From NCBI GenBank assembly GCA_001798595.1, contig MGSS01000002.1:1-34656 (forward strand): a stretch of 34,656 nt of DNA, in the 5' to 3' direction. Below the pieces are notes generated by a model. That model was not told the DNA's origin and searched no databases. It saw only the letters and a program-made list of their open reading frames with translations. A program made the translations under genes and the position numbers. The DNA is from Deltaproteobacteria bacterium RIFCSPLOWO2_12_FULL_60_19 (GTDB taxonomy: Bacteria; Desulfobacterota; Binatia; UBA9968). Positions 5,348 to 21,832 of the stretch are shown here, in pieces. Numbering within the stretch: the stretch's first letter is position 1; each line of letters starts with the position of its first letter.

Positions 5348-6823
5348 TTAAACCGATTGAAGAATTTTCGCGAACTTCGCCTTCAGCTTCGCGCGCATCT
5401 CCGGACTCACATCGACGACCGTCGGGAATTTGCCTTTGAGTTTGCGGTCGTACGGAACGCAGGCGTCGATGAGGATACGGTTGTTGAAATTTCCCGGCAG
5501 AAACATCGGGTCCCGGCCCGACGACCAGGCTTTTTGAATCGTGTCGATGTCGGTCAGCGGATCGAAACGCGTGCACATAGCCCACAGAACCTGATCGAGG
5601 TCGGAGCAGTCGATGTCCTCGTCCACCACGACCGTCCACTTGCCGTTGTAAGCGCCAGCGGCGCAGTTGGCGGCGACGTGTAGCACGTTTCGCGAATGGC
5701 CGGGATAGCGCTGGAGAATCTGGATCGCCGTGAAGCGCGTCGCCGGCCCGCCCTCGTGATTCCACACGCCGAGAATGTCCGGCAGGCCGCACGCCTCCAG
5801 CGCCTTCCATATCTCCGCCGCGCCGGCGATCCCTTTGAGCAAGCCTGTCTCGTCCACCGGCTTGTGCTGCGGCGCGCAGGTAAGGATCGGGTCGTTGCGG
5901 TAGAGTACCGTCTTTACGTCGATGTAGGGGCGCGGCACGACATCGTCCGAGTAATATCCCATCCACTCGCCGAACGGCCCCTCCGGCTTGACATGGCCGG
6001 GCACCGCATCACCTTCGATGACGATCTCGGCGTCCGCCGGTATCGGAAAGCCGGTGTAGGGTCCTTTGACAACTTCGATCGGTTCTCCTCGGATGCCGCC
6101 GGCGAAGTCGTACTCCGAAACGCCGCGCGGCAGCGGACTGGACGACAACATGTAAAGCAGCGGGTCCTGGCCGCAGACCACGGCGACCTTCATGGTCTGG
6201 CCGCGTTCGAAATATTTGTCGCGATGAATCCTGCCGTGTTTCCCTTCGGTGATCTGGCAGCCGACGGTTTTGCCGTCATAGACCTGGCAGCGGTAGGCGC
6301 CCAGATTGTACCAGTCGCTGTCGGGATCTTTGGTGATCACCAGATCGGCGGTTCCAAGATAGCGGGCCTCGTCCAACTCATGGTGCACGGGCACGGGGAA
6401 TTTGAGAACGTCGACCTGATCGCCTTCGAGAACGTGATCGAGAATTGGTCCGGTCTTGACGAGCTTCGGCTTGATAAGCTCCATCTTCTCCATGCGGCCG
6501 TGATAGGCTTTGACGGTATCGACTTTCCGCTCGTATTCGAGCGGCAGGCCGAGGGTGAGGGCGACGCGCTTGATCGAGGAGAACTGGCCGTAGAGCGTGC
6601 GGAAGCCTTTGGGATAGCCGGGAACTTCATCGAAGAGAATCGCCGGCGCTTTGCCTTTGCTGCTCGCCGTCAACATCTGCGTCATCGAGCCCATCTCTCT
6701 GTCCCAGTGGGCCCCGTTGACCTTGAGCAGCTCGCCCATGCGCTCTACCTGCGCCAGCCAATCCCGCAGCCCACGATAGCTTACTTGCAGCTCCGACATT
6801 CTCGCTTTTTCCGGACGTGCCAT
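5348..6823 (-). CDS. UbiD family prenylated-FMN (de)carboxylase
   Basis: 491 residues from the ATG at 6823, preceded by GGGGGGAGACC; an in-frame GTG/ATG further out at 6847 lies at the predicted -10 region. UbiD enzymes reversibly decarboxylate aromatic or alpha,beta-unsaturated acids using prenylated FMN. The catalytic residues are present with the usual spacing: R168 in LGAYRCQV, and E271 and E276 in PEGPFGEWMGYYS. Length is normal for the family. It is the first gene of the operon UbiD, DapA-like, thiol-dioxygenase-like. No UbiX flavin prenyltransferase is in the window, so the cofactor must be made elsewhere. The substrate is unknown; the coupling to an aldolase suggests a catabolic route in which decarboxylation and C-C cleavage follow each other. 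Confidence 0.92.
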   Translation of the reverse strand: MARPEKARMSELQVSYRGLRDWLAQVERMGELLKVNGAHWDREMGSMTQMLTASSKGKAPAILFDEVPGYPKGFRTLYGQFSSIKRVALTLGLPLEYERKVDTVKAYHGRMEKMELIKPKLVKTGPILDHVLEGDQVDVLKFPVPVHHELDEARYLGTADLVITKDPDSDWYNLGAYRCQVYDGKTVGCQITEGKHGRIHRDKYFERGQTMKVAVVCGQDPLLYMLSSSPLPRGVSEYDFAGGIRGEPIEVVKGPYTGFPIPADAEIVIEGDAVPGHVKPEGPFGEWMGYYSDDVVPRPYIDVKTVLYRNDPILTCAPQHKPVDETGLLKGIAGAAEIWKALEACGLPDILGVWNHEGGPATRFTAIQILQRYPGHSRNVLHVAANCAAGAYNGKWTVVVDEDIDCSDLDQVLWAMCTRFDPLTDIDTIQKAWSSGRDPMFLPGNFNNRILIDACVPYDRKLKGKFPTVVDVSPEMRAKLKAKFAKILQSV

Positions 6824-6842
6824 GGTCTCCCCCCTTGCGCTC

Positions 6843-6872
6843 ACCATACGTTCCGCCCCCTCGCCTTGTCAA
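6843..6872 (-). promoter_or_regulatory. Predicted sigma70-type promoter of the UbiD operon
   Basis: Minus strand TTGACA (6867-6872, perfect), 18-bp spacer, TATGGT (6843-6848). Transcription would begin about 6836, giving a very short leader that still contains the GGGGGGAG ribosome binding site before the ATG at 6823. This also argues against the upstream start at 6847. Confidence 0.5.
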
Positions 6873-10751: not shown

Positions 10752-10819
10752 TTCCTTGACCTCCCTTATCTCTTTGCCGCGACTCTAGCGTAAATCCTCC
10801 CTCCCTCGCAATAGCTCCC

Positions 10820-10889
10820 CGATTTTCGATTTTAGATTTTGGATTTTCGATTTAAATCGGCGTTCAATCCAAAATCGGCAATCCAAAAT
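10820..10889. repeat. Heptad-phased dyad tract, GATTTT family
   Basis: Ten contiguous 7-nt units in one phase: CGATTTT (twice), AGATTTT, GGATTTT, CGATTTA, then the inverted half with CCAAAAT, CGGCAAT and CCAAAAT. It lies between two divergent genes, 69 nt from the M24 start and 9 nt before the predicted -35 box of the citryl-CoA-lyase-like operon. Confidence 0.8.
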
Positions 10890-10897
10890 AGTATGTC

Positions 10898-10926
10898 TTG
10901 ACAGTCGCCCCTCGTATTTCATATGT
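10898..10926 (+). promoter_or_regulatory. Predicted promoter of the citryl-CoA-lyase-like operon
   Basis: TTGACA (10898-10903, perfect), 17-bp spacer, ATATGT (10921-10926), or TATGTC with an 18-bp spacer. The AAGGAGGAG ribosome binding site and ATG at 10955 follow about 25 nt later. Confidence 0.45.
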
Positions 10927-10954
10927 CTGCCTTGGGGCAAGAAGGAGGAGTGAC

Positions 10955-11743
10955 ATGAGCCAGCAGGCGAAAATCGTTACCGGCCTGGGCAAAGCCGAAC
11001 TCCATCGAATTTTGGTTCGGGGCTACGACCTGACCGAGGAGCTTGTCGGCAAGATAACCTTCAGCCAGATGACTTTCCTGATGCTCATGGGCCGCATGCC
11101 GACGGCGGGACAGACCCGCATGATCGACGCCCTGCTCACCATTCTGGTCGAGCATGGGATGGTTTCGAGCATTGTCGCGGCCCGCCTGACTTACCACACC
11201 GCTCCCGAAGCGATTCAGGCCGCCGTGGCGACCGCCATTCTGGGCGCCGGCAGCGTTCATCTCGGCTCCTCCGAGTGGTGCGCGCGGATGCTCCAGGAAG
11301 CCCTCCCGCCGCACACCAACGACGCCGATCTCGACACCCTCGCGGCATCCGTGGTAAAGCGCTATGAAGAGAGAAAGCAGAGAGTCCCCGGTATCGGCCA
11401 TCGGACTCACGCAGAGGGCGACCCGCGCGCGGACCGCCTGTTTGAGATCGCTCGCGAGACTCAAGTCTACGGCCGCTACTGCGATCTTTTGCGGCGCATC
11501 GCCCGCGCGGCGGAGTCGCGGCGCGGACGCCGCCTGCCGGTGAACGTCACCGGCGCGATCGCCGCGATCGCTTCCGACCTGGGACTCCCGTGGCCCATGT
11601 CCAAGGCATTCGCGATCATCGGCAGGACTCTGGGCGCCATGGCTCACATCGGCGAGGAGATCCGCAATCCGATGGCCGGAAACATCGACGCCGCGATCAA
11701 GTCGGCTTTAGTCTACGAGGCGGGTGACAAGGAGAGAACATGA
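10955..11743 (+). CDS. Citryl-CoA lyase-like / short citrate synthase-fold protein
   Basis: 262 residues; start at 10955 has AAGGAGGAG at ideal distance, so the in-frame codon at 10898, which overlaps the -35 box, is rejected. It is a short citrate-synthase-fold protein, the size of stand-alone citryl-CoA lyases rather than citrate synthases (about 380-430). Conserved features are GAGSVHLG (H102), GIGHRTHAEGDPRADRL (H149, R158) and SDLGLPWPMSKAFAIIGRTLGAMAH. The third catalytic residue of citrate synthase, the Asp of NVDF, is Thr here (NVTG, T199). It probably cleaves or forms a citryl-CoA-like thioester, with the real substrate unknown. Its TGA overlaps the next gene by 4 nt, coupling it to a solute-binding protein. 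Confidence 0.82.
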   Translation: MSQQAKIVTGLGKAELHRILVRGYDLTEELVGKITFSQMTFLMLMGRMPTAGQTRMIDALLTILVEHGMVSSIVAARLTYHTAPEAIQAAVATAILGAGSVHLGSSEWCARMLQEALPPHTNDADLDTLAASVVKRYEERKQRVPGIGHRTHAEGDPRADRLFEIARETQVYGRYCDLLRRIARAAESRRGRRLPVNVTGAIAAIASDLGLPWPMSKAFAIIGRTLGAMAHIGEEIRNPMAGNIDAAIKSALVYEAGDKERT

Positions 11744-12741
11744 GAACGAACAAGCGGCTCCTCGGTCTCGCGCTGTGTTTAGTCGTTTTCTCGCTGCCGA
11801 TTCCGCGCGCGAATGCGCAGCTCAAGAAGCTCAACCTCTCCTACACTGCGACCAGCCCCTATCAAGCGGTCCTCATCATCGGCCAACAGGCGGGAATCTT
11901 CCGCAAGCACGGCATTGATGTATCGCTGATCTTTATGGCCGGCGGCTCGCTGGGGATTCAGGCCATGGTGGGAGGAGACGTGCCCATGACTCAGGCGGAC
12001 GGTTCGGCTTCGGTCGCCGCCGCGATCGCCGGAGTCGACGTGGTGATGATCGGGAGTTTTTTGAATACCTTCCCCTACAGCCTGGTATCCCTGCCGGAGA
12101 TAAAGACGGTCGAGCAGCTCAAGGGAGGAAAAATCGCCATCAGCCGCTTCGGCAGCGCGACCGACTTGAGCGTGAAAATGGCGCTCGCCAAAGTCGGCCT
12201 GAACGCCGAGAAGGATGTGGCTTTGCTGCAGGTCGGCGCCCAGACCGCCCGCGTCGTCGCGCTTCAGTCGAAAAGCGTCCAGGCGACGATCATCACGCCG
12301 CCGTTCACGTTGACCGCGCGCAAGCTCGGCTACAACACGTTGATCGACATGGCCCAGCTCAACATCCCCTATCAACTGACGGCCTTGGTCACTTCCAGGG
12401 CCTTTGTCAGATCACATCCGGACACCGTCATGTCCGTGATGCGAGCCGCCGTCGAGAGTATCCATTTCTATAAAACGCAAAAAGAGCCGAGCATCAAAAT
12501 CCTGAGCAAGTACCTCCAGACCGCGGATCGCGAAGCGCTGGAAGAGACCTATCGCGAAGTCAGTCTGAAAGTCGTGCCGGAAAAACCTTATCCGACGCTG
12601 CTCGGCATCCAGACGATTCTCGATGAGCTGGCGGTGAAAAATCCCAAGCTGAAGACCGCAAGGCCCGAGGACTTTGTCGACATGAGCTTCGTCAAAAAAT
12701 TGGATGATGAAAAATTATTCGACCGTCTCTACAAGCGCTAG
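11740..12741 (+). CDS. NMT1/THI5-like ABC solute-binding protein
   Basis: 333 residues. Residues 1-26 form a clear signal peptide (LLGLALCLVVFSLPIPRANA, cleavage before QLKK). The fold signature follows: SYTATSPYQAVLIIGQQAGIFRKHGIDV, GGSLGIQAMVGGDVPMTQADG, QLKGGKIAISRFGSATD. It is the same family as the gene at 7669-8655 but a distant paralogue. The ATG overlaps the TGA of the citryl-CoA-lyase-like gene (ATGA) with GGAGAG 4 nt before. Coupling with a lyase suggests that the ligand is an organic acid handled by that enzyme. No permease or ATPase accompanies it. Confidence 0.88.
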   Translation: MRTNKRLLGLALCLVVFSLPIPRANAQLKKLNLSYTATSPYQAVLIIGQQAGIFRKHGIDVSLIFMAGGSLGIQAMVGGDVPMTQADGSASVAAAIAGVDVVMIGSFLNTFPYSLVSLPEIKTVEQLKGGKIAISRFGSATDLSVKMALAKVGLNAEKDVALLQVGAQTARVVALQSKSVQATIITPPFTLTARKLGYNTLIDMAQLNIPYQLTALVTSRAFVRSHPDTVMSVMRAAVESIHFYKTQKEPSIKILSKYLQTADREALEETYREVSLKVVPEKPYPTLLGIQTILDELAVKNPKLKTARPEDFVDMSFVKKLDDEKLFDRLYKR

Positions 12742-12774: not shown

Positions 12775-13815
12775 ATGAAAAAATTCGTCTTGCTTCTGAT
12801 CGCATCCCTGGGGTGCAGCCTCTCGTTCGTCTGCGGCGCTGAGGCCCAAACGGAGCCTTTTTACCAGGGTAAAACCATCAGGATCGTCGTCGGCTTCCCC
12901 ACCGGAGGCATCGTGGATGCGTGGGCACGCCTCCTCGCGATGCACATCGGCAAGCATCTTCCGGGAAAGCCCGATGTCATCGTCCAGAACATGGGCGGCG
13001 CCGGCTCCATGATCGCCGCCAACCACCTCTACAACCTCGCCAAACCCGACGGTCTGACGCTGGGAATGATCTCGACCGCGCTTTACTTCGATCAGTTGGC
13101 GGGAAAAAAAGAGGTCCAGTTCGATTGGGCCAAGTTCCAATGGATCGGTTCTCCGGTGCGCAATTACGAGATTTTCGCCGTGCGCTCGGACACGCTATTC
13201 AAGAGCGTCGAAGATATTCGCAAAGCCGCGCAGCCTCCAAAATGCGGCTCCACCGGCACGGGCACCACCAGCTACTATTTCCCGAAATTTTTGGAGGAAG
13301 CGCTTGGAATAAAGTTTCACATGGTTGCGGGCTATCCCGGCACGAGAGATATTGAAGTCGCCATGGAACGAGGCGAGGTTCACTGCTACGGCCAGACCAA
13401 GGAAATCCTGACCCGCGATCCGTCCAAAGGTTGGTTGAAGAGAGGATTCATTCGCGTGCTGGTCCAGGGGGGATCGAGCCGTGACGCGGGCATGGCGGAG
13501 GTCCCGACGATTTACGAGCTTATGGAAAAGTACAGGACGCCCGAGGAAATCAAGCGTGTCGCTCCGGTTCTGCTGTCTCCCGGCGCCAGCGGCCGTCCCA
13601 TGATCGCGCCGCCGGCTCTGCCGGCGGAACGGGTCAAGCATCTGCGCGACGCCTATCAGAAGACGCTCGGCGACCCGGATTTCCTGGACGCCGCCAAGAA
13701 ACGGGGTTGGGAGGTCGAGCGCATCACCGGCGAAGAGCTGGAGGCGATCGCCAGGAAGGCCGTCTCCCAACCTCCCGACACCGTCGAGCGATTGAAGAAG
13801 ATCATGGGGGAGTAG
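12775..13815 (+). CDS. TctC/Bug family tripartite tricarboxylate transporter solute-binding protein
   Basis: 346 residues with a signal peptide (KKFVLLLIASLGCSLSFVCGAEA, cleavage before QTEPF). FYQGKTIRIVVGFPTGGIVDAWARLLA is the typical Bug N-terminus, followed by VIVQNMGGAGSMIAANHLYNLAKPDG. In TctC proteins this region binds carboxylates through two water molecules. The family delivers di- or tricarboxylates to TctAB permeases; none are nearby, which is common in genomes with many Bug proteins. GGAGGAGGG precedes the ATG by 7 nt, and it lies 33 nt downstream of the NMT1-like gene, so it is probably the third gene of that operon. Confidence 0.9.
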   Translation: MKKFVLLLIASLGCSLSFVCGAEAQTEPFYQGKTIRIVVGFPTGGIVDAWARLLAMHIGKHLPGKPDVIVQNMGGAGSMIAANHLYNLAKPDGLTLGMISTALYFDQLAGKKEVQFDWAKFQWIGSPVRNYEIFAVRSDTLFKSVEDIRKAAQPPKCGSTGTGTTSYYFPKFLEEALGIKFHMVAGYPGTRDIEVAMERGEVHCYGQTKEILTRDPSKGWLKRGFIRVLVQGGSSRDAGMAEVPTIYELMEKYRTPEEIKRVAPVLLSPGASGRPMIAPPALPAERVKHLRDAYQKTLGDPDFLDAAKKRGWEVERITGEELEAIARKAVSQPPDTVERLKKIMGE

Positions 13816-15654: not shown

Positions 15655-17766
15655 ATGGCGGCGCAGGGACAGTACATCATCGGCGTGGACACCGGCGGGA
15701 CATTCACGGATGTCGTCGTCATGAGCGAGGCGGGACAGGTGTGGACGGCGAAAGCCTCCACGACGCCGGACGATTTTTCGCGCGGGGTGATGGATGCGCT
15801 GACGGAGGCGGCGAGGACCGTCGGCGTCGACAGAAAAGATCTGCTCGGCCGCACTTCCCTCTTCAAGCACGGCAGCACGGTCGCGACCAACGCGCTGATT
15901 ACGCGCAGCGGCGTCAAAGTCGGCTTCATCACGACCAGGGGCTTCGAGGACACGACGGAGATCATGCGCGCCATCGGACGCGTCGACGGCCTCTCGGAAG
16001 AAGAGATCCGCCACGTCACCTGGGTGACCAAGCCCGAGCCGCTCGTCCCGCGTGAGCGCATCGCCGGCGTGCGCGAGCGCATTGACTACACCGGCCGGGA
16101 GATCGCGCCGCTCGACCGGGGCGACGTGATGGCCGCGGTGCGCAAACTCATGGATGAGGACAAAGTTGAGGCCATCGCCGTGAGTCTCCTCCATGCCTGG
16201 GTCAATCCGGCCCACGAGGAGCAGATCCGCTCGCTCGCGCTCGAAGCCGACCCGTCGCAGAAGCTCTACTGGTCGTTCGGCAGCGCGCTCTCGCAGATCG
16301 CCGGCGAATACGCCCGCGCCAACACCGCGATCCTCAACAGCTACCTCGGCCCGACGGTCGAGCGCTACTTGAAGGGACTTGAGCGCAAGCTCAGGGACGG
16401 TGGGTTGAAAAGCTCGCTGCTCATCATGCAGGGCAACGGCGGCGTCGGCCACCGCGAGCAGGTGTCGGCCATCGCCAATCTCCAGTCCGGCCCCGCGGGC
16501 GGCATGATCGCTTCGGCCCACGTGGCGAAAGTTCTCAAGCACAAAAACGTCATTACGACCGACATGGGCGGAACGAGCTTCGACGTGGGGCTGATCACCG
16601 ACGGCTACTGGCGCTACGCGCAGGAGCCGATCGTCGAGCGCTTTAGAATTCTTCAGCCCATTATCGACATCGAGTCGATCGGCGCGGGAGGCGGCACCAT
16701 CGCTCGTGTCGATCCGGAGACCGGCCGCCTCCTCGTCGGCCCCAAGAGCGCGGGCGCAAGCCCCGGCCCGGTCTGTTACGATGCCGGTGGCACGGAAGTC
16801 ACCGTCACCGACGCCGACCTGGCGTTGGGCATTATCGATCCGAACTACTTTCTCGGCGGAAGAAAGAGACTCAACAAGGAGAAGGCCCTCAAGATCATCG
16901 AAGAGAAGATCGCGCGCCCGCTCAAGCTGAAAGTCCAGCAGGCCGCCGCCGGCATTTACGACATCGTCAACAGCAAGATGTCCGATCTGATCCGGCGGCA
17001 GGTGGTGCGAACAGGTTACTTGCCCGAAGAATTCGTGATTTACGCCTTCGGCGGCGCCGGCGCGGTGCACGCCTCGGGTTTTGCCGTGGAGCTGGGCGTC
17101 AAGAAGATTTACATCTTCGCGACCTCCCCGGTCTTCTCCGCCTTCGGCGCAGCCGCCGCGGACGTGATTCATACGCGGGTGATGACCTGCCAATACATCC
17201 TGCCCGTCGAGCCCAAGGCGCTCAACGAGCGGCTGGGCCAGATCGAAGGCGAAATGAAACAGATCATGATCGGCGAAGGCTTCCGCCCCGCCGACATCGA
17301 GTTCCGGCGCTTCTTCACGATGCGCTACCGCCGCCAGACCGCCGGCGTCGAGCTTCCTGTGACCTCGGAGCCGTTTACGGCGGACAAGATTGCGAAGCTC
17401 CACCTTGCCTTTGAAAAGAAATACGAGGAGCTTTTCGGCGTCGGCGCCGGCTATACAAAGGCGGGCATCGAGATCAGCGCGATCCGCATCGATGCCGTGG
17501 GACGTGTAGCTAAGCCACGCCTCAAGCCGGAAAGAATTAAAACGAAACGGCTTGCCGCCGCGAAGAAGGGAAAACGACAAATCTTTTTCACGCGGCCCGA
17601 GCGCCGGCTGATCGAAGCCGACGTCTATGACTACGCCCGGCTCGGCGCCGGCGCGCGCATCGAGGGACCGGCGGTGATCGAGCTGCCCTTCACCACGACG
17701 CTGGTCCCGCCGGAATTTCACGTAACGATCGACAACTACCGTAACCTGGTGATGGAGGTGGGCTAG
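15655..17766 (+). CDS. Hydantoinase/oxoprolinase family protein, HyuA/AcxA-type subunit of an ATP-dependent carboxylase
   Basis: 703 residues. The N-terminal actin-like ATPase domain starts IIGVDTGGTFTDVVVMSEAG and a second nucleotide-binding motif is VITTDMGGTSFDVGL. The C-terminus contains the HyuA beta-rich part (YDYARLGAGARIEGPAVIELPFTTTLVPP). The family comprises N-methylhydantoinases, 5-oxoprolinase, and the beta subunit of acetone and acetophenone carboxylases, which phosphorylate the substrate or bicarbonate. No good Shine-Dalgarno is visible. Length is close to AcxA (about 717). The next gene is its obligate partner HyuB-type subunit, and that gene carries a gamma-subunit-like domain, which favours the carboxylase branch over hydantoinase. 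Confidence 0.9.
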   Translation: MAAQGQYIIGVDTGGTFTDVVVMSEAGQVWTAKASTTPDDFSRGVMDALTEAARTVGVDRKDLLGRTSLFKHGSTVATNALITRSGVKVGFITTRGFEDTTEIMRAIGRVDGLSEEEIRHVTWVTKPEPLVPRERIAGVRERIDYTGREIAPLDRGDVMAAVRKLMDEDKVEAIAVSLLHAWVNPAHEEQIRSLALEADPSQKLYWSFGSALSQIAGEYARANTAILNSYLGPTVERYLKGLERKLRDGGLKSSLLIMQGNGGVGHREQVSAIANLQSGPAGGMIASAHVAKVLKHKNVITTDMGGTSFDVGLITDGYWRYAQEPIVERFRILQPIIDIESIGAGGGTIARVDPETGRLLVGPKSAGASPGPVCYDAGGTEVTVTDADLALGIIDPNYFLGGRKRLNKEKALKIIEEKIARPLKLKVQQAAAGIYDIVNSKMSDLIRRQVVRTGYLPEEFVIYAFGGAGAVHASGFAVELGVKKIYIFATSPVFSAFGAAAADVIHTRVMTCQYILPVEPKALNERLGQIEGEMKQIMIGEGFRPADIEFRRFFTMRYRRQTAGVELPVTSEPFTADKIAKLHLAFEKKYEELFGVGAGYTKAGIEISAIRIDAVGRVAKPRLKPERIKTKRLAAAKKGKRQIFFTRPERRLIEADVYDYARLGAGARIEGPAVIELPFTTTLVPPEFHVTIDNYRNLVMEVG

Positions 17767-17784
17767 TGAGACGCTGGACGAGTT

Positions 17785-17889
17785 CAATTTTCGATTTTAG
17801 ATTTTGGATTTTGGATTGAGGTCCGAATCATGAAATTGAAAAGCGGCAATCGTTCGACTAAGCGCGCGACAGGTCGAAAATCGAAAATG
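17785..17889. repeat. Split repeat tract flanking the HyuB start, GATTTT family
   Basis: The forward arm (17785-17819) has units CAATTTT, CGATTTT, AGATTTT, GGATTTT and GGATTGA. A short inverted arm with GAAAATC and GAAAATG lies at 17874-17889. About 55 nt of ordinary sequence separates them, which includes the first codons of the HyuB-type frame. Same family as the tracts at 10820 and 31523 but with the second arm short and its phase shifted. Confidence 0.6.
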
Positions 17890-20124
17890 AAAGAGATCGA
17901 TCCCATACGCTTCGAGATGTTCTTCCATCGTCTGTGGGCGATCGGCGAGGAAGGCCGCATGACGCTCCAGCGCGTGACGGCGTCGCCGATCGTCTCCCAG
18001 GGCGGCGAGTGCATGAGCAGCTTCTACGACGAAGCGGGCCATATGGTGCTTGCCTGCTCCGGCCATCTAAGATTCGCCGCCGCAACTTCCGATGCGATCA
18101 AAAAGCTGATCGAGTGGTTCGGCGAATCGCCGGGCTTCTTTGACGGCGACCAGATCTTCTTTAACGACCCCTATGTGGCCGGGTCGCACACCTACGATAT
18201 GATGGTTATCAAGCCGATCTTTCTCCGCAAAAATCGATTGCTCGCCTGGACCGCTACCAGCACGCACACCGCGGACACCGGCGGCGTACTGCGCGGCGGG
18301 GCCTACGAAGTACACCACGAAGGCATCCGCATCATCGGCCTCAAGATCGTCGAGCGCGGCGAGTTTCGTGAGGACGTCTTTAGAACGCTGACCGAGCAGT
18401 GTCGCGACCCGCAGTACGTCGGCCTCGACTTGAAGGCCATGATCGCCGGCAACAACGTCTGCGCCCGGCGCTACCTCGGCCTGGTGGGGAAGTTCGGTCT
18501 CGACTTCGTTCGCGGGGCGGGCGAGAAGATGATCGCCGACTCCGAAAGCAAAGCGCGCGCGAAGCTCCGCTCCCTTCCCAACGGAACGTGGGTCACGCGC
18601 CAATACGTGACGACCCTGGACCGAAAGACGCGCAAGGCCGTCGCTCAGCAGCTCTTCTGCACGATGACGAAGGAAGACGACGAGCTGCGTTTGGACTTCA
18701 CCGGCACCAGCCCCCAGACCGACACCGATCACAATTCAACCCTCCCGAGCACCGTCGCCCATATTGCGCTGGCGCTCACCAACACGCTTTTCTGGGACGT
18801 GCCGTGGAGCGACGGCAAGATGCGGCCCGTAAAGATCGGCGTGCCCGAAGGCTCGATTCTCAACTGCCGCTATCCCGCCGCCTGCGGCGCCGCGCCGAGA
18901 ATCGGCAACGTGCTTGTCTCCACCGTCTGCGAGGGCGTGGCGAAGATGATCTACGCCTCGGGCCGTCTGGAAGACGTCAACTGCTCGACGACCGGCAATC
19001 TGGAATTCGTCGGCGGCCCCGGTTACTTCTACGGCGGCCGGACGCGCGAAGGCATTCCCGTCGCCCAGGGGCTTTACGACATTCACGGCGCGGGCATGGG
19101 GGCCACGCCCGAACGCGACGGCGTCAACACCGGCGGCCACATGAACATCCCCTCCGCCGGCATCGCCGACATCGAGCGGATCGAGATGCAGTACCCGTTT
19201 CTCTATTTCACGCGCGGCCACAACCGCGACGGCAGCGGCTTCGGCCAAAACCGCGGCGGGCTCGGCAGCTATCGGATGTTTCTCATCTACGGCTCGAAGG
19301 ATTGCTCGGCCGACTACAAACCCTACGGCGGCATCGCGCAGGGCGGCTTCGGTCTCTACGGCGGCTACCCGACGGGCATCAGCGCGACGCGCATGATGGC
19401 GTTCGCCGGCCTTGACATGCTCGATCGAGTGAGGAATGGCGATTATCCCGAGACCGACACGATCCGCGCCGGCGCGTGGGGACGACTCCACCATCCCGAG
19501 GGAGTGCCGGAGAGAATTCCGCTGCCCGAAGGAAGTCTGTTGGTTGACTATGTGGCAGGCGGCGGGGGCTTCGGCGATCCGCTCGACCGCGATCCCGAAG
19601 CGGTGCTGCGAGACTTCGGACGGGGCTGGGTGAGCCGCGACACGGCCCTGAGAATCCATGGCGTGGTTTTCGAATCCGGAGGAAAGAAAGTAAACCTCGA
19701 CGCCACGGCGCAAAAACGGGAGCAGATCCGCGAAGCGCGGCGGCGCGAGGCCGTTCCGCCCTCCGGAAAAACCAGCTCGCTCGGACGGGATGAAGCAAAA
19801 GAGATGAAGACGATCTTGAGATTTCACGCGATGCTGGAGATCGCCGGGAACGGAAGCGAGCCTGTGATCCGCTGCCGGCGCTGCGGCCATCTCTTCTGCG
19901 GCGCGACCGAGAACTACAAGCTCTACGCGCTCCATCGCGTGGTGCACCTGAGAGATTTCATGCCCTATCCCCTGCCGACCGGCGAGCCTTACATCGGCGA
20001 GTATCACGAATATTTCTGCCCCGGCTGCGCGACGCAGCTTCAGGTCGATCTCTTCTGTCCTCCTCTCGGCGGTGAGCCGATCTTGTGGGATATCCAAATA
20101 CTCAGGGACGCGGATGAGCCTTAG
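17830..20124 (+). CDS. Hydantoinase B/AcxB-type subunit fused to an acetone-carboxylase-gamma-like zinc ribbon
   Basis: 764 residues from the ATG at 17830, which has GAGG 8 nt upstream; the core begins only at EIDPIRFEMFFHRLW, so the ATG at 17887 is an alternative start and the first 19 basic residues may be artefact. The main part (about 20-600) is a HyuB domain: EGRMTLQRVTASPIVSQGGE, FNDPYVAGSHTYDMMVIKPIF, TSTHTADTGG, TDHNSTLPSTVAH and GGGGFGDPLDRDPEAVLRD. After a charged linker, residues about 664-764 form an extra domain with two CxxC knuckles (C682/C685, C730/C733: CRRCGH and CPGCATQLQVDL), resembling the separate gamma subunit (AcxC) of acetone carboxylase. A ketone or aromatic carboxylase is therefore favoured. 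Its stop overlaps the thiolase-like gene by 11 nt. Confidence 0.88.
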   Translation: MKLKSGNRSTKRATGRKSKMKEIDPIRFEMFFHRLWAIGEEGRMTLQRVTASPIVSQGGECMSSFYDEAGHMVLACSGHLRFAAATSDAIKKLIEWFGESPGFFDGDQIFFNDPYVAGSHTYDMMVIKPIFLRKNRLLAWTATSTHTADTGGVLRGGAYEVHHEGIRIIGLKIVERGEFREDVFRTLTEQCRDPQYVGLDLKAMIAGNNVCARRYLGLVGKFGLDFVRGAGEKMIADSESKARAKLRSLPNGTWVTRQYVTTLDRKTRKAVAQQLFCTMTKEDDELRLDFTGTSPQTDTDHNSTLPSTVAHIALALTNTLFWDVPWSDGKMRPVKIGVPEGSILNCRYPAACGAAPRIGNVLVSTVCEGVAKMIYASGRLEDVNCSTTGNLEFVGGPGYFYGGRTREGIPVAQGLYDIHGAGMGATPERDGVNTGGHMNIPSAGIADIERIEMQYPFLYFTRGHNRDGSGFGQNRGGLGSYRMFLIYGSKDCSADYKPYGGIAQGGFGLYGGYPTGISATRMMAFAGLDMLDRVRNGDYPETDTIRAGAWGRLHHPEGVPERIPLPEGSLLVDYVAGGGGFGDPLDRDPEAVLRDFGRGWVSRDTALRIHGVVFESGGKKVNLDATAQKREQIREARRREAVPPSGKTSSLGRDEAKEMKTILRFHAMLEIAGNGSEPVIRCRRCGHLFCGATENYKLYALHRVVHLRDFMPYPLPTGEPYIGEYHEYFCPGCATQLQVDLFCPPLGGEPILWDIQILRDADEP

Positions 20125-21307
20125 AGGGAAAGCGGCGATCGTCGGCGTCGGTGAGACGCCGGTGGATCGGCTCGGCGGAAAACCCGGCGAGCCGCGTAAG
20201 GTCACGGCCGAATATCTCTCTTGGGCGGCGCGTCTCGCGCTCGAAGACGCGGGGCTGACGAAAAAGGATCTCGACGGCCAAGGGCTCGCCGCGATCTACA
20301 CGACGAACCACTCGCAGCCCTTCTGGCCGGAGGAGGCGGCGAATATACTGGGAATCGCGCCGGCCGTTTCGCTCGCCGGAGGCAACGGCGGCGCAAGCGC
20401 GGTCTCCCTGCTGGGACACGGCGCGGCGATGATCGATTCCGGCGTCGTCGATCTCGTGCTCGTCGTCGCCGCCGCTGCCCCGTTCAGCGAGCGGGGCCGC
20501 ACCAGGGCCGAGCCGGCCGACACGCGCGACTTCGAGATGCCGTTCGGCGTGATGGGCCCCAATTGCAAGATCTCTTTCGTCATGAGCCGCTACATGCACG
20601 AGTCCGGCATGACGGTCGATCACTTCGGCAAGATCGCTGTCACGGCGCGCCACCACGCGACGCTGAACCCCGACGCTTACCTGAGAAAACCGTTGACGCT
20701 CGAAGAATACAAGAGTTCGCGCCTGATTTCCGATCCGATCCGTCTCTACGATTGCGTTCTGCCGGCCAACGGTGGCAAGGCCTACATCATGGCCTCGCCG
20801 GAGCGCGCCAAGACTCTTCGCCGGTCGCCGGTCTATCTGCTCGGCTGGGGCGAGCGCAACAACGCGAGCGCCGGTCCCCGCTCCAACGCGAATCCGTTGA
20901 TCACCGGCATCCTTGAGTCGGGCAAAGCCGCGTTCGAGATGGCCGGTGTCTCGCACAAAGATATTGCCCTCCTCGCTCTGTACGACGACTACGTTCCGAT
21001 CATTATGTTGCAGATCGAAGACCTGGGCTTCTGCGGGAAAAACGACCGAGTATTCTTTGAAAAGACCGATTTCACGATCAAAGGCGATCTGCCGATCCAG
21101 ACCGGAGGCGGCATGATCAATTGCGGTCAGCCCTCGACGACCGGCGGCATGCTCCACGTTATCGAAGTGGCGCGGCAGCTCCGAGGGGAAGGCGGCGCGC
21201 GGCAGGTGGCGGACGCGAAGGTCGGTCTGGCGACCGGTCTCGGCGCGGTGAATTACGGCAAGAACTTCGGCTGTACCGCCGCGGCGATTTTAGGGAGTGA
21301 GCCGTGA
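20114..21307 (+). CDS. Thiolase-fold protein (SCP2/lipid-transfer type) lacking the catalytic cysteine
   Basis: 397 residues from ATG 20114 (MSLRGKAAIVGVGETPVDRLG), which has AGGGA 6 nt upstream and lies inside the end of the HyuB gene; the frame opens earlier at 20072 without support. The thiolase layout is clear: LSWAARLALEDAGLTKKDLDG, LGHGAAMIDSGVVDLVLVV, and a C-terminal GGMINCGQPSTTGGML. The loading cysteine of thiolases (CxSG) is Gly (GGNGGASA) and the GHP histidine motif is GQP, so Claisen chemistry with an acyl-cysteine is not expected. Thiolase-like proteins without this cysteine that pair with DUF35 proteins include the Ltp2 retro-aldolase of steroid side-chain breakdown. The DUF35 gene is next but one repeat tract away. 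Confidence 0.87.
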   Translation: MSLRGKAAIVGVGETPVDRLGGKPGEPRKVTAEYLSWAARLALEDAGLTKKDLDGQGLAAIYTTNHSQPFWPEEAANILGIAPAVSLAGGNGGASAVSLLGHGAAMIDSGVVDLVLVVAAAAPFSERGRTRAEPADTRDFEMPFGVMGPNCKISFVMSRYMHESGMTVDHFGKIAVTARHHATLNPDAYLRKPLTLEEYKSSRLISDPIRLYDCVLPANGGKAYIMASPERAKTLRRSPVYLLGWGERNNASAGPRSNANPLITGILESGKAAFEMAGVSHKDIALLALYDDYVPIIMLQIEDLGFCGKNDRVFFEKTDFTIKGDLPIQTGGGMINCGQPSTTGGMLHVIEVARQLRGEGGARQVADAKVGLATGLGAVNYGKNFGCTAAAILGSEP

Positions 21308-21394
21308 GAAGTGAGAAAGTGAGTAGTCAGGAGGATTGGAGCTGTAATTCTCGTTTCCGCTCTGCTCACCACTCACTACTCACTGCTCACTGGG
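21304..21394. repeat. Heptad-phased dyad tract, GTGAGAA family
   Basis: Thirteen contiguous 7-nt units (91 nt). The first arm has GTGAGAA twice, AGTGAGT and AGTCAGG; the second arm is the inverted complement with CACCACT, CACTACT, CACTGCT and CACTGGG. The tract begins within the stop codon region of the thiolase-like gene and ends 6 nt before the DUF35 start. It has a completely different sequence from the AT-rich tracts but the same 7-nt phase and dyad design. Confidence 0.8.
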
Positions 21395-21400
21395 TTTGAT

Positions 21401-21832
21401 ATGGCTGAAGAGAAGAAAGAGATCCCAAAGCCCCTCCCTGAGATCACCCCCGTCACCCAGCTCTTCTGGGAAGCGGCGGCGAGCGGGAAGTTGGTCATGC
21501 AGCGCTGCGCCGAATGTCGCTCCTGGGTCTGGTGCCCGCGCCCGGCCTGCGTCGAGTGCGGCAGCGAAAAGCTTTCATGGACCCCCCTCGGCGGGCGCGG
21601 CAGAATCTTCGCCTTCACCGTGATCCGCGAAGTCGTCGGCCGCGCGTTACGCGGTTTCGCCGGCGATATTCCCTACGTCACCGCCTGGATCGATCTGGAC
21701 GAAGGGCCGAGGATCTGCAGTAACGTGATCGGCTGCCCGATCGAGCAGATCGCGATCGGGATGCCGGTGGAAGTCGTTTTCGAAAAGGCCGGCGTAGGCA
21801 TCTCCCTACCAAAGTTCAGACCGCGCTCCTGA
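21401..21832 (+). CDS. DUF35 (Zn-ribbon plus OB-fold) acyl-CoA-associated protein
   Basis: 143 residues. The N-terminal helix (PLPEITPVTQLFWEAAASGKLVMQ) is followed by a rubredoxin-like zinc ribbon with C36, C39, C50 and C53 (RCAECRSWVWC...CVECGS, where another Cys lies in WCPRPAC) and a C-terminal OB-fold (RIFAFTVIREVVGRALRGFAGDIPYVTAWIDLDEG). DUF35 proteins bind acyl-CoA and scaffold thiolase-fold partners, as in archaeal acetoacetyl-CoA thiolase/HMG-CoA synthase complexes and the ChsH2-Ltp2 retro-aldolase. Its position right after a thiolase-like gene fits exactly that partnership. It is the last gene of the 15655-21832 cluster. Confidence 0.9.
   Translation: MAEEKKEIPKPLPEITPVTQLFWEAAASGKLVMQRCAECRSWVWCPRPACVECGSEKLSWTPLGGRGRIFAFTVIREVVGRALRGFAGDIPYVTAWIDLDEGPRICSNVIGCPIEQIAIGMPVEVVFEKAGVGISLPKFRPRS

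Follow-up and report, generated by a model that had tools for sequence, protein, structure and literature searches.

The 34,656-nt stretch of DNA analysed here (hereafter the window), taken from contig MGSS01000002.1 of Deltaproteobacteria bacterium RIFCSPLOWO2_12_FULL_60_19, an uncultured member of the Binatia from soil and groundwater, carries a cluster of four genes encoding a HyuA-type subunit, a HyuB-type subunit, a thiolase-fold protein and a DUF35 protein, the order and common strand of which are those given by an earlier, sequence-only reading (Table 1). The C-terminus of the HyuB-type protein is a true acetone-carboxylase gamma domain, and its fusion to HyuB is a conserved architectural variant of the ketone-carboxylase family, undescribed in the literature that we searched. 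On balance, HyuA and the fused HyuB (HyuB-gamma) probably represent a lineage of their own among ATP-dependent carbonyl carboxylases, the third beside acetone carboxylase (Acx) and acetophenone carboxylase (Apc). The characterised ketone carboxylases that depend on ATP and not on biotin are, to our knowledge, only a handful.

The sequence-only reading had proposed that the C-terminal domain of HyuB resembles the gamma subunit of acetone carboxylase and had named PF08882 (Acetone_carb_G) beforehand as its refutation test. The similarity was found, both with the protein (32.2 bits for a cut-off of 21) and in a genome-level profile search (E 1.8e-8), in which 14 control genomes returned no match to PF08882. 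By phmmer, the AcxC chain 5m45_C matches HyuB residues 679-742 (E 3.5e-4), while a profile-versus-profile alignment (hhalign) with bona fide gamma subunits of Acx and Apc, drawn from relatives of the same phylum, reaches a probability of 99 and an E of 4e-18. Modelled alone, the domain has a predicted local distance difference test score (pLDDT) of 88.7, and its fold matches AcxC (5svc_C; Z 11.2, root-mean-square deviation 2.9 over 100 residues) and Apc gamma (5l9w_C; Z 10.3), the next unrelated row standing at Z 3.9; the full-length HyuB model, with a mean pLDDT of 64.8, was used for fold matching only. Finally, the four cysteines of the domain are invariant in the 30 fused HyuBs (30/30) of our alignment, i.e., this HyuB and 29 relatives with the same fusion.

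The fusion, which departs from the textbook arrangement of three separate subunits, proved to be real and conserved. Fused open reading frames (ORFs) in many independent assemblies, along with purifying selection on the four cluster genes (ratios of nonsynonymous to synonymous substitution rates of 0.11, 0.13, 0.07 and 0.06 against L003; L numbers designate related loci and G numbers genomes), rule out an assembly artefact or a frameshift. The close relatives are metagenome-assembled genomes (MAGs) labelled Deltaproteobacteria or Candidatus Binatia, plus one Chloroflexi SAR202 MAG, and PF08882 is found in 30 of the 35 genomes of the window's order, most often in reading frames 730-830 aa long, i.e., fused to HyuB. 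Distant fused forms (27-29% identity) exist in Mycobacterium branderi and Niveispirillum, and both pass the PF08882 cut-off. On haloarchaeal plasmids, HyuA, HyuB and gamma are encoded by separate genes, so that split and fused versions both exist in nature. One literature library yielded no paper on the HyuB-gamma fusion or on PF08882 in Binatia, and the Binatota genome paper makes no mention of acetone, ketones, hydantoinase or thiolase. The conserved start of HyuB is probably the ATG at 17887, which would give a protein of 745 aa, since the 19 residues ahead of it show no conservation.

A relation of HyuA and HyuB to ketone carboxylases had likewise been proposed, and both the metal site and the phylogeny of HyuB favour gamma-bearing carboxylases over hydrolases. 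The residues Glu60, His120, Asp123 and His146 are invariant in 30/30 fused HyuBs and align with Glu89, His150, Asp153 and His175 of XaAc alpha, Glu89 being the tunnel-gating residue in acetone carboxylase. This Glu gate and the SPIVxxxGE motif are common to the fused HyuB and acetone carboxylase, whereas Asp occupies the gate in all nine hydrolase-type HyuBs of the tree set, in the Apc proteins and in C158 of the window's own genome. Phylogenetic trees for HyuA and HyuB were computed as quick trees, with Shimodaira-Hasegawa-like approximate likelihood ratio test (SH-aLRT) support only. In the HyuB tree, the fused proteins, Acx, Apc and C158 fall together and are split from the nine hydrolase-type HyuBs (SH-aLRT 100); the main fused, Acx and Apc clades are each distinct, and the window HyuB belongs to neither Acx nor Apc. 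In the HyuA tree, the partners of fused HyuBs form one clade, which adjoins C158 and then the hydrolases and stands apart from Acx and Apc. The Acx clade is supported at 100 in both trees, with the window proteins outside. As for C158 (15236-19360; L050), it carries an unfused gamma-HyuA-HyuB set, the HyuB of which groups with the fused L060; there may thus have been a second fusion event, or else a fission.

For HyuA, the best PDB chain is 5l9w_B (Apc alpha; 426 bits), all three ATP motifs are present (the phosphate motifs DTGGTFTD and DMGGT and the adenosine motif GASPGP), and RERIDYTG agrees with the Apc-alpha interface fingerprint R/KERiDsxG, with Y in place of s. Compared with known systems, the window set resembles AcxABC of Xanthobacter autotrophicus (5m45/5svb) in its single HyuA, its Glu-His-Asp-His site, its SPIV...GE motif, the Cys4 zinc site of its gamma and its alpha-beta-gamma gene order, but differs in that gamma is fused to HyuB in one ORF, in that both large subunits lie outside the Acx clade, and in a HyuB identity of only ~24% in the fold alignment. 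For each of the two large subunits, the best PDB match is ApcABCDE of Aromatoleum aromaticum (5l9w), which also shares the alpha interface fingerprint and the gamma fold (Z 10.3), yet it has an additional alpha', an Asp gate and a separate gamma located before alpha, and forms a separate clade. An acetone or acetophenone carboxylase proper is ruled out by the separate subunits of these systems and by their clades. Caprolactamase CapAB and N-methylhydantoinase (6yra, 7hk5/9h03) share both large folds, and the NCBIfam models place HyuA closest to CapA; unlike the window set, these enzymes are devoid of gamma and have an Asp gate, and our HyuB lies across the best-supported branch from them.

Several observations weigh against carboxylation. 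HyuA is nearer to hydrolase HyuAs than to those of Acx and Apc (support 90), though as a separate clade, and the NCBIfam models score it higher as CapA (539) than as ApcC (459), neither reaching its cut-off. The window holds one HyuA only, without a second one comparable to the alpha' of Apc, and the window copy has neither a CoA ligase nor a CoA transferase beside it. Asp is also found at the gate of the fused L060, of C158 and of one Acx-like protein (L063), so that Glu is not a strict marker. Moreover, gamma has no demonstrated function, and its presence is thus no proof of carboxylation. The position of HyuA and its top score with the caprolactamase alpha model speak for a hydrolase of cyclic amides (hydantoinase, lactamase or imidase) that depends on ATP and has retained gamma, in which HyuA would phosphorylate the amide carbonyl and HyuB would hydrolyse it, all the more as caprolactamase HyuB shares the metal fold, Asp replacing Glu. 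Against such a hydrolase, the 2017 Apc paper on the family places gamma in Apc and Acx and in none of the hydantoinase and other hydrolase complexes that it describes, and the window HyuB falls outside the hydrolase side of its tree and has Glu at the gate. We consider this alternative rather unlikely; a plain hydantoinase is ruled out for HyuB by the presence of gamma and by the tree, the matter of activity staying with the amide hydrolase just described. Because the HyuA and HyuB trees partly disagree on the nearest relatives, we place our confidence in carboxylation only slightly above even.

In ketone carboxylases, roughly 40-50 Å have to be bridged between the ATP site and the site of C-C bond formation. 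By homology with these enzymes, HyuA is predicted to use ATP to convert the carbonyl substrate into its enol phosphate and bicarbonate into carboxyphosphate, both reactions taking place sequentially at its one ATP site, in the manner of acetone carboxylase. The two intermediates would then travel along an internal channel, with Glu60 as its gate, and reach a metal held in HyuB by Glu60, His120, Asp123 and His146, where the C-C bond would form and a beta-keto acid would be released. The gamma domain, tethered to HyuB by a covalent link rather than supplied as its own subunit, would hold a structural zinc and brace HyuB.

HyuA and HyuB-gamma differ in copy number across the genomes of the window's order, in which clade HyuAs were counted at an identity of at least 60% and HyuB-gammas at an identity of at least 56%. 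Clade HyuA is present in 0 or 1 copy per genome, HyuB-gamma in up to five. Among the 23 genomes that are at least 90% complete, both are found in 16, neither in six, HyuB-gamma only in one (fragmented) and HyuA only in none, for totals of 16 HyuA vs. 36 HyuB-gamma (hand tally, partial genes counted); the Fisher p of this co-occurrence is 7e-5, a value that ignores shared ancestry. The single-contig G305, matched through its coordinates to the chromosome OX638375, has one clade HyuA and five HyuB-gammas, as do G306 and G300. On OX638375, tblastn detects no HyuA in the 8 kb flanking L021, L023 and L037 on each side, and these orphan HyuB-gammas keep every catalytic and zinc residue; the copies L019 and L031 (OY282432) are likewise without HyuA within 8 kb, in a genome with one clade HyuA and five HyuB-gammas. 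The orphans may borrow either the single clade HyuA or one of the more distant HyuAs, roughly 42% identical, that their genome also encodes. The copy numbers suggest that one kinase subunit is shared by exchangeable catalytic subunits. A further step, which we take tentatively and regard as somewhat doubtful, is a modular system in which one HyuA per genome would serve interchangeable scattered HyuB-gammas, each carboxylating a different carbonyl compound; the gamma fusion would then make each catalytic cartridge self-contained.

The genes around HyuB-gamma in relatives bear on its product and substrate. A CoA-transferase gene lies 4-5 nt after the orphan HyuB-gamma in L023 (10215-11393; class III, PF02515) and in L031 (10264-11439; same cluster as the former), which is consistent with an acid product being passed to CoA; hydrolysis of an amide would also give an acid, so this neighbour does not discriminate between the two activities. 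Nitronate monooxygenase-like genes occur upstream of HyuB-gamma in L019, L020 and L021, and luciferase-like monooxygenase genes adjoin it in L003 (3898-5034), L023 (6583-7692) and L031. Together with the several divergent HyuB-gamma paralogs, which suggest several substrates, these neighbours could point to the carboxylation of something other than a simple ketone, such as a CoA thioester or a phenol-like, N-heterocyclic or other C-H acid originating from flavin monooxygenases. Since the neighbouring genes differ from one HyuB-gamma copy to the next, we find such a substrate unlikely.

The sequence-only reading had allowed for subsequent action of the thiolase-fold/DUF35 pair on the CoA form; the active site disagrees with a thiolase role. 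The protein has GGNGGAS where thiolases have CASGGAA, hence no nucleophilic Cys, CGQP at the GHP position, hence no catalytic His, and YDDY instead of HDxF; GGNGG(A/S)S, CGQP and YDDY are kept in all orthologs of at least 78% identity where the stretch is covered. These residues rule out a beta-ketothiolase and make ordinary beta-ketoacyl-CoA thiolysis unlikely. Owing to YDDY, the DUF35 partner and the lack of catalytic Cys and His, the protein rather resembles the Sal and Ltp2 steroid side-chain aldolases (9myr, 6ok1; PMC12329534), which are thiolase folds with a DUF35 partner and without nucleophilic Cys, and in which the base is the Tyr of YDCY or YDHF. The catalytic-base Tyr of YDx(F/Y) is present here, YDDY being invariant where the motif is covered, and GQ is as in the Sal-like 9myr. 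In contrast, the general acid differs: the third motif residue is Asp, vs. an essential Cys (that of YDCY) in Sal and His in Ltp2, where the acid is Tyr344. The aligned TGGGMINCGQPST stretch contains no Tyr as a counterpart of Tyr344, the Ltp2 alignment being gapped there, and no measured counterpart was found for an Asp in the third place of YDDY. The window protein is also distant in sequence from these aldolases, and there is no MaoC hydratase domain here. On a Cupriavidus plasmid, a 43% identical YDDY protein is encoded among genes for an enoyl-CoA hydratase, a DUF35 protein, an acyl-CoA dehydrogenase and an acyl-CoA ligase, which fits a sequence of hydration then retro-aldol cleavage. The DUF35 protein, encoded by the adjacent gene, is the predicted partner of the thiolase-fold protein, and the pair is probably a retro-aldolase acting on a beta-hydroxyacyl-CoA. 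Such a pair could supply the ketone or aldehyde to the carboxylase, rather than process its product; aldolase followed by carboxylase thus seems the likelier order, and carboxylase followed by thiolase the less likely.

That the carboxylase and thiolase/DUF35 genes form one cluster holds for their adjacency and overlap (from its corrected start, ATG 20114, the thiolase gene shares 11 nt with the end of HyuB, stop codon included), but not for a tight pairing, as each half is found alone. L009-L011 and L013-L016 have HyuA and HyuB-gamma but not the pair, and loci of genus g204 and of G312 (L068, L069, L070, L080) carry the pair, with FKBP and MFS genes (in some also SIR2) behind it, in the absence of HyuAB. 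It is therefore quite possible, if somewhat short of even, that the pair belongs to a separate pathway that merely adjoins HyuAB. Beyond the overlap in the window, this is countered by the order HyuA, HyuB-gamma, thiolase recurring in L003, L005, L007, L008 and L012, with DUF35 next in L003, L005 and L008, and by the distant L058 (HyuB 47% identical), in which a different thiolase-fold gene overlaps the HyuB-gamma stop. Overall, the thiolase/DUF35 genes are plausibly, though loosely, linked to HyuAB. Regarding other arrangements, an additional gene for a binding protein separates HyuA from HyuB in L006, while two HyuB copies flank one HyuA (L009, L061) or HyuBs lie near a single HyuA of the same contig (among L009, L018, L029 and L061).

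Table 1. Features of the cluster and of its surroundings in the window.
Feature	Position	Strand	Evidence
HyuA-type (alpha) ATP-dependent subunit, 703 aa	15655..17766	+	PF05378, PF01968, PF19278
HyuB-type catalytic subunit fused to gamma domain, 764 aa	17830..20124	+	PF02538 24-584, PF08882 680-757
Predicted metal-site residues Glu60, His120, Asp123, His146 (HyuB)	18007..18267	+	Invariant in 30/30 fused HyuBs
Gamma domain, zinc cysteines Cys682, 685, 730, 733 and ENYK motif	19807..20100	+	Pfam, fold, conservation
Thiolase-fold protein, 397 aa	20114..21307	+	PF22691; best PDB 4u4e, 9myr, 6ok1
Aldolase-like active site YDDY in thiolase-fold gene	20981-20992	+	
DUF35 protein, ChsH2-type zinc ribbon and OB fold	21401..21832	+	PF12172 (zf-ChsH2), PF01796 (OB_ChsH2_C) over cut-off
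Citryl-CoA lyase subfamily protein	10898..11743	+	NF004868 290 bits, cut-off 193
SsuA/NMT1-type solute-binding protein	11740-12741	+	PF09084
TctC-type solute-binding protein	12775-13815	+	PF03401

Upstream of the cluster, the gene for a citryl-CoA lyase subfamily protein is shared by the window, L003, L006 and L008, and such a gene lies directly 3' of HyuB-gamma in L013 (10342-11148, NF004868) and L014; the protein may belong to the same pathway. The upstream SsuA gene is also kept in L003, L006 and L008, and substrate uptake is a possible role for the SsuA/NMT1- and TctC-type proteins. The T-rich tract 5' of HyuB (window 17784-17817) is a tandem repeat of the 7-nt unit GATTTTN, also seen at 10819-10852; with 45 matches dispersed over the genome (some overlapping), this scatter rules out a regulatory or cluster-specific element. 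A palindrome of TGAG/CTCACT units fills the thiolase-DUF35 gap (21308-21400; z -2.9), and one of its arms has four further matches in the genome. Elsewhere in the window, a UbiD-family decarboxylase is encoded on the reverse strand (5348-6847); it exceeds the cut-off of TIGR00148, and its best match is phenylphosphate carboxylase beta, below the cut-off of that model.

With beta and gamma naturally joined, the system comes down to two proteins and is a simpler target for expression. Should a single ATPase subunit indeed serve several catalytic ones, the family would amount to a modular platform for CO2 fixation, and numerous genes of uncultured Binatia and Chloroflexi that now bear the annotation "hydantoinase B" would have to be re-annotated.

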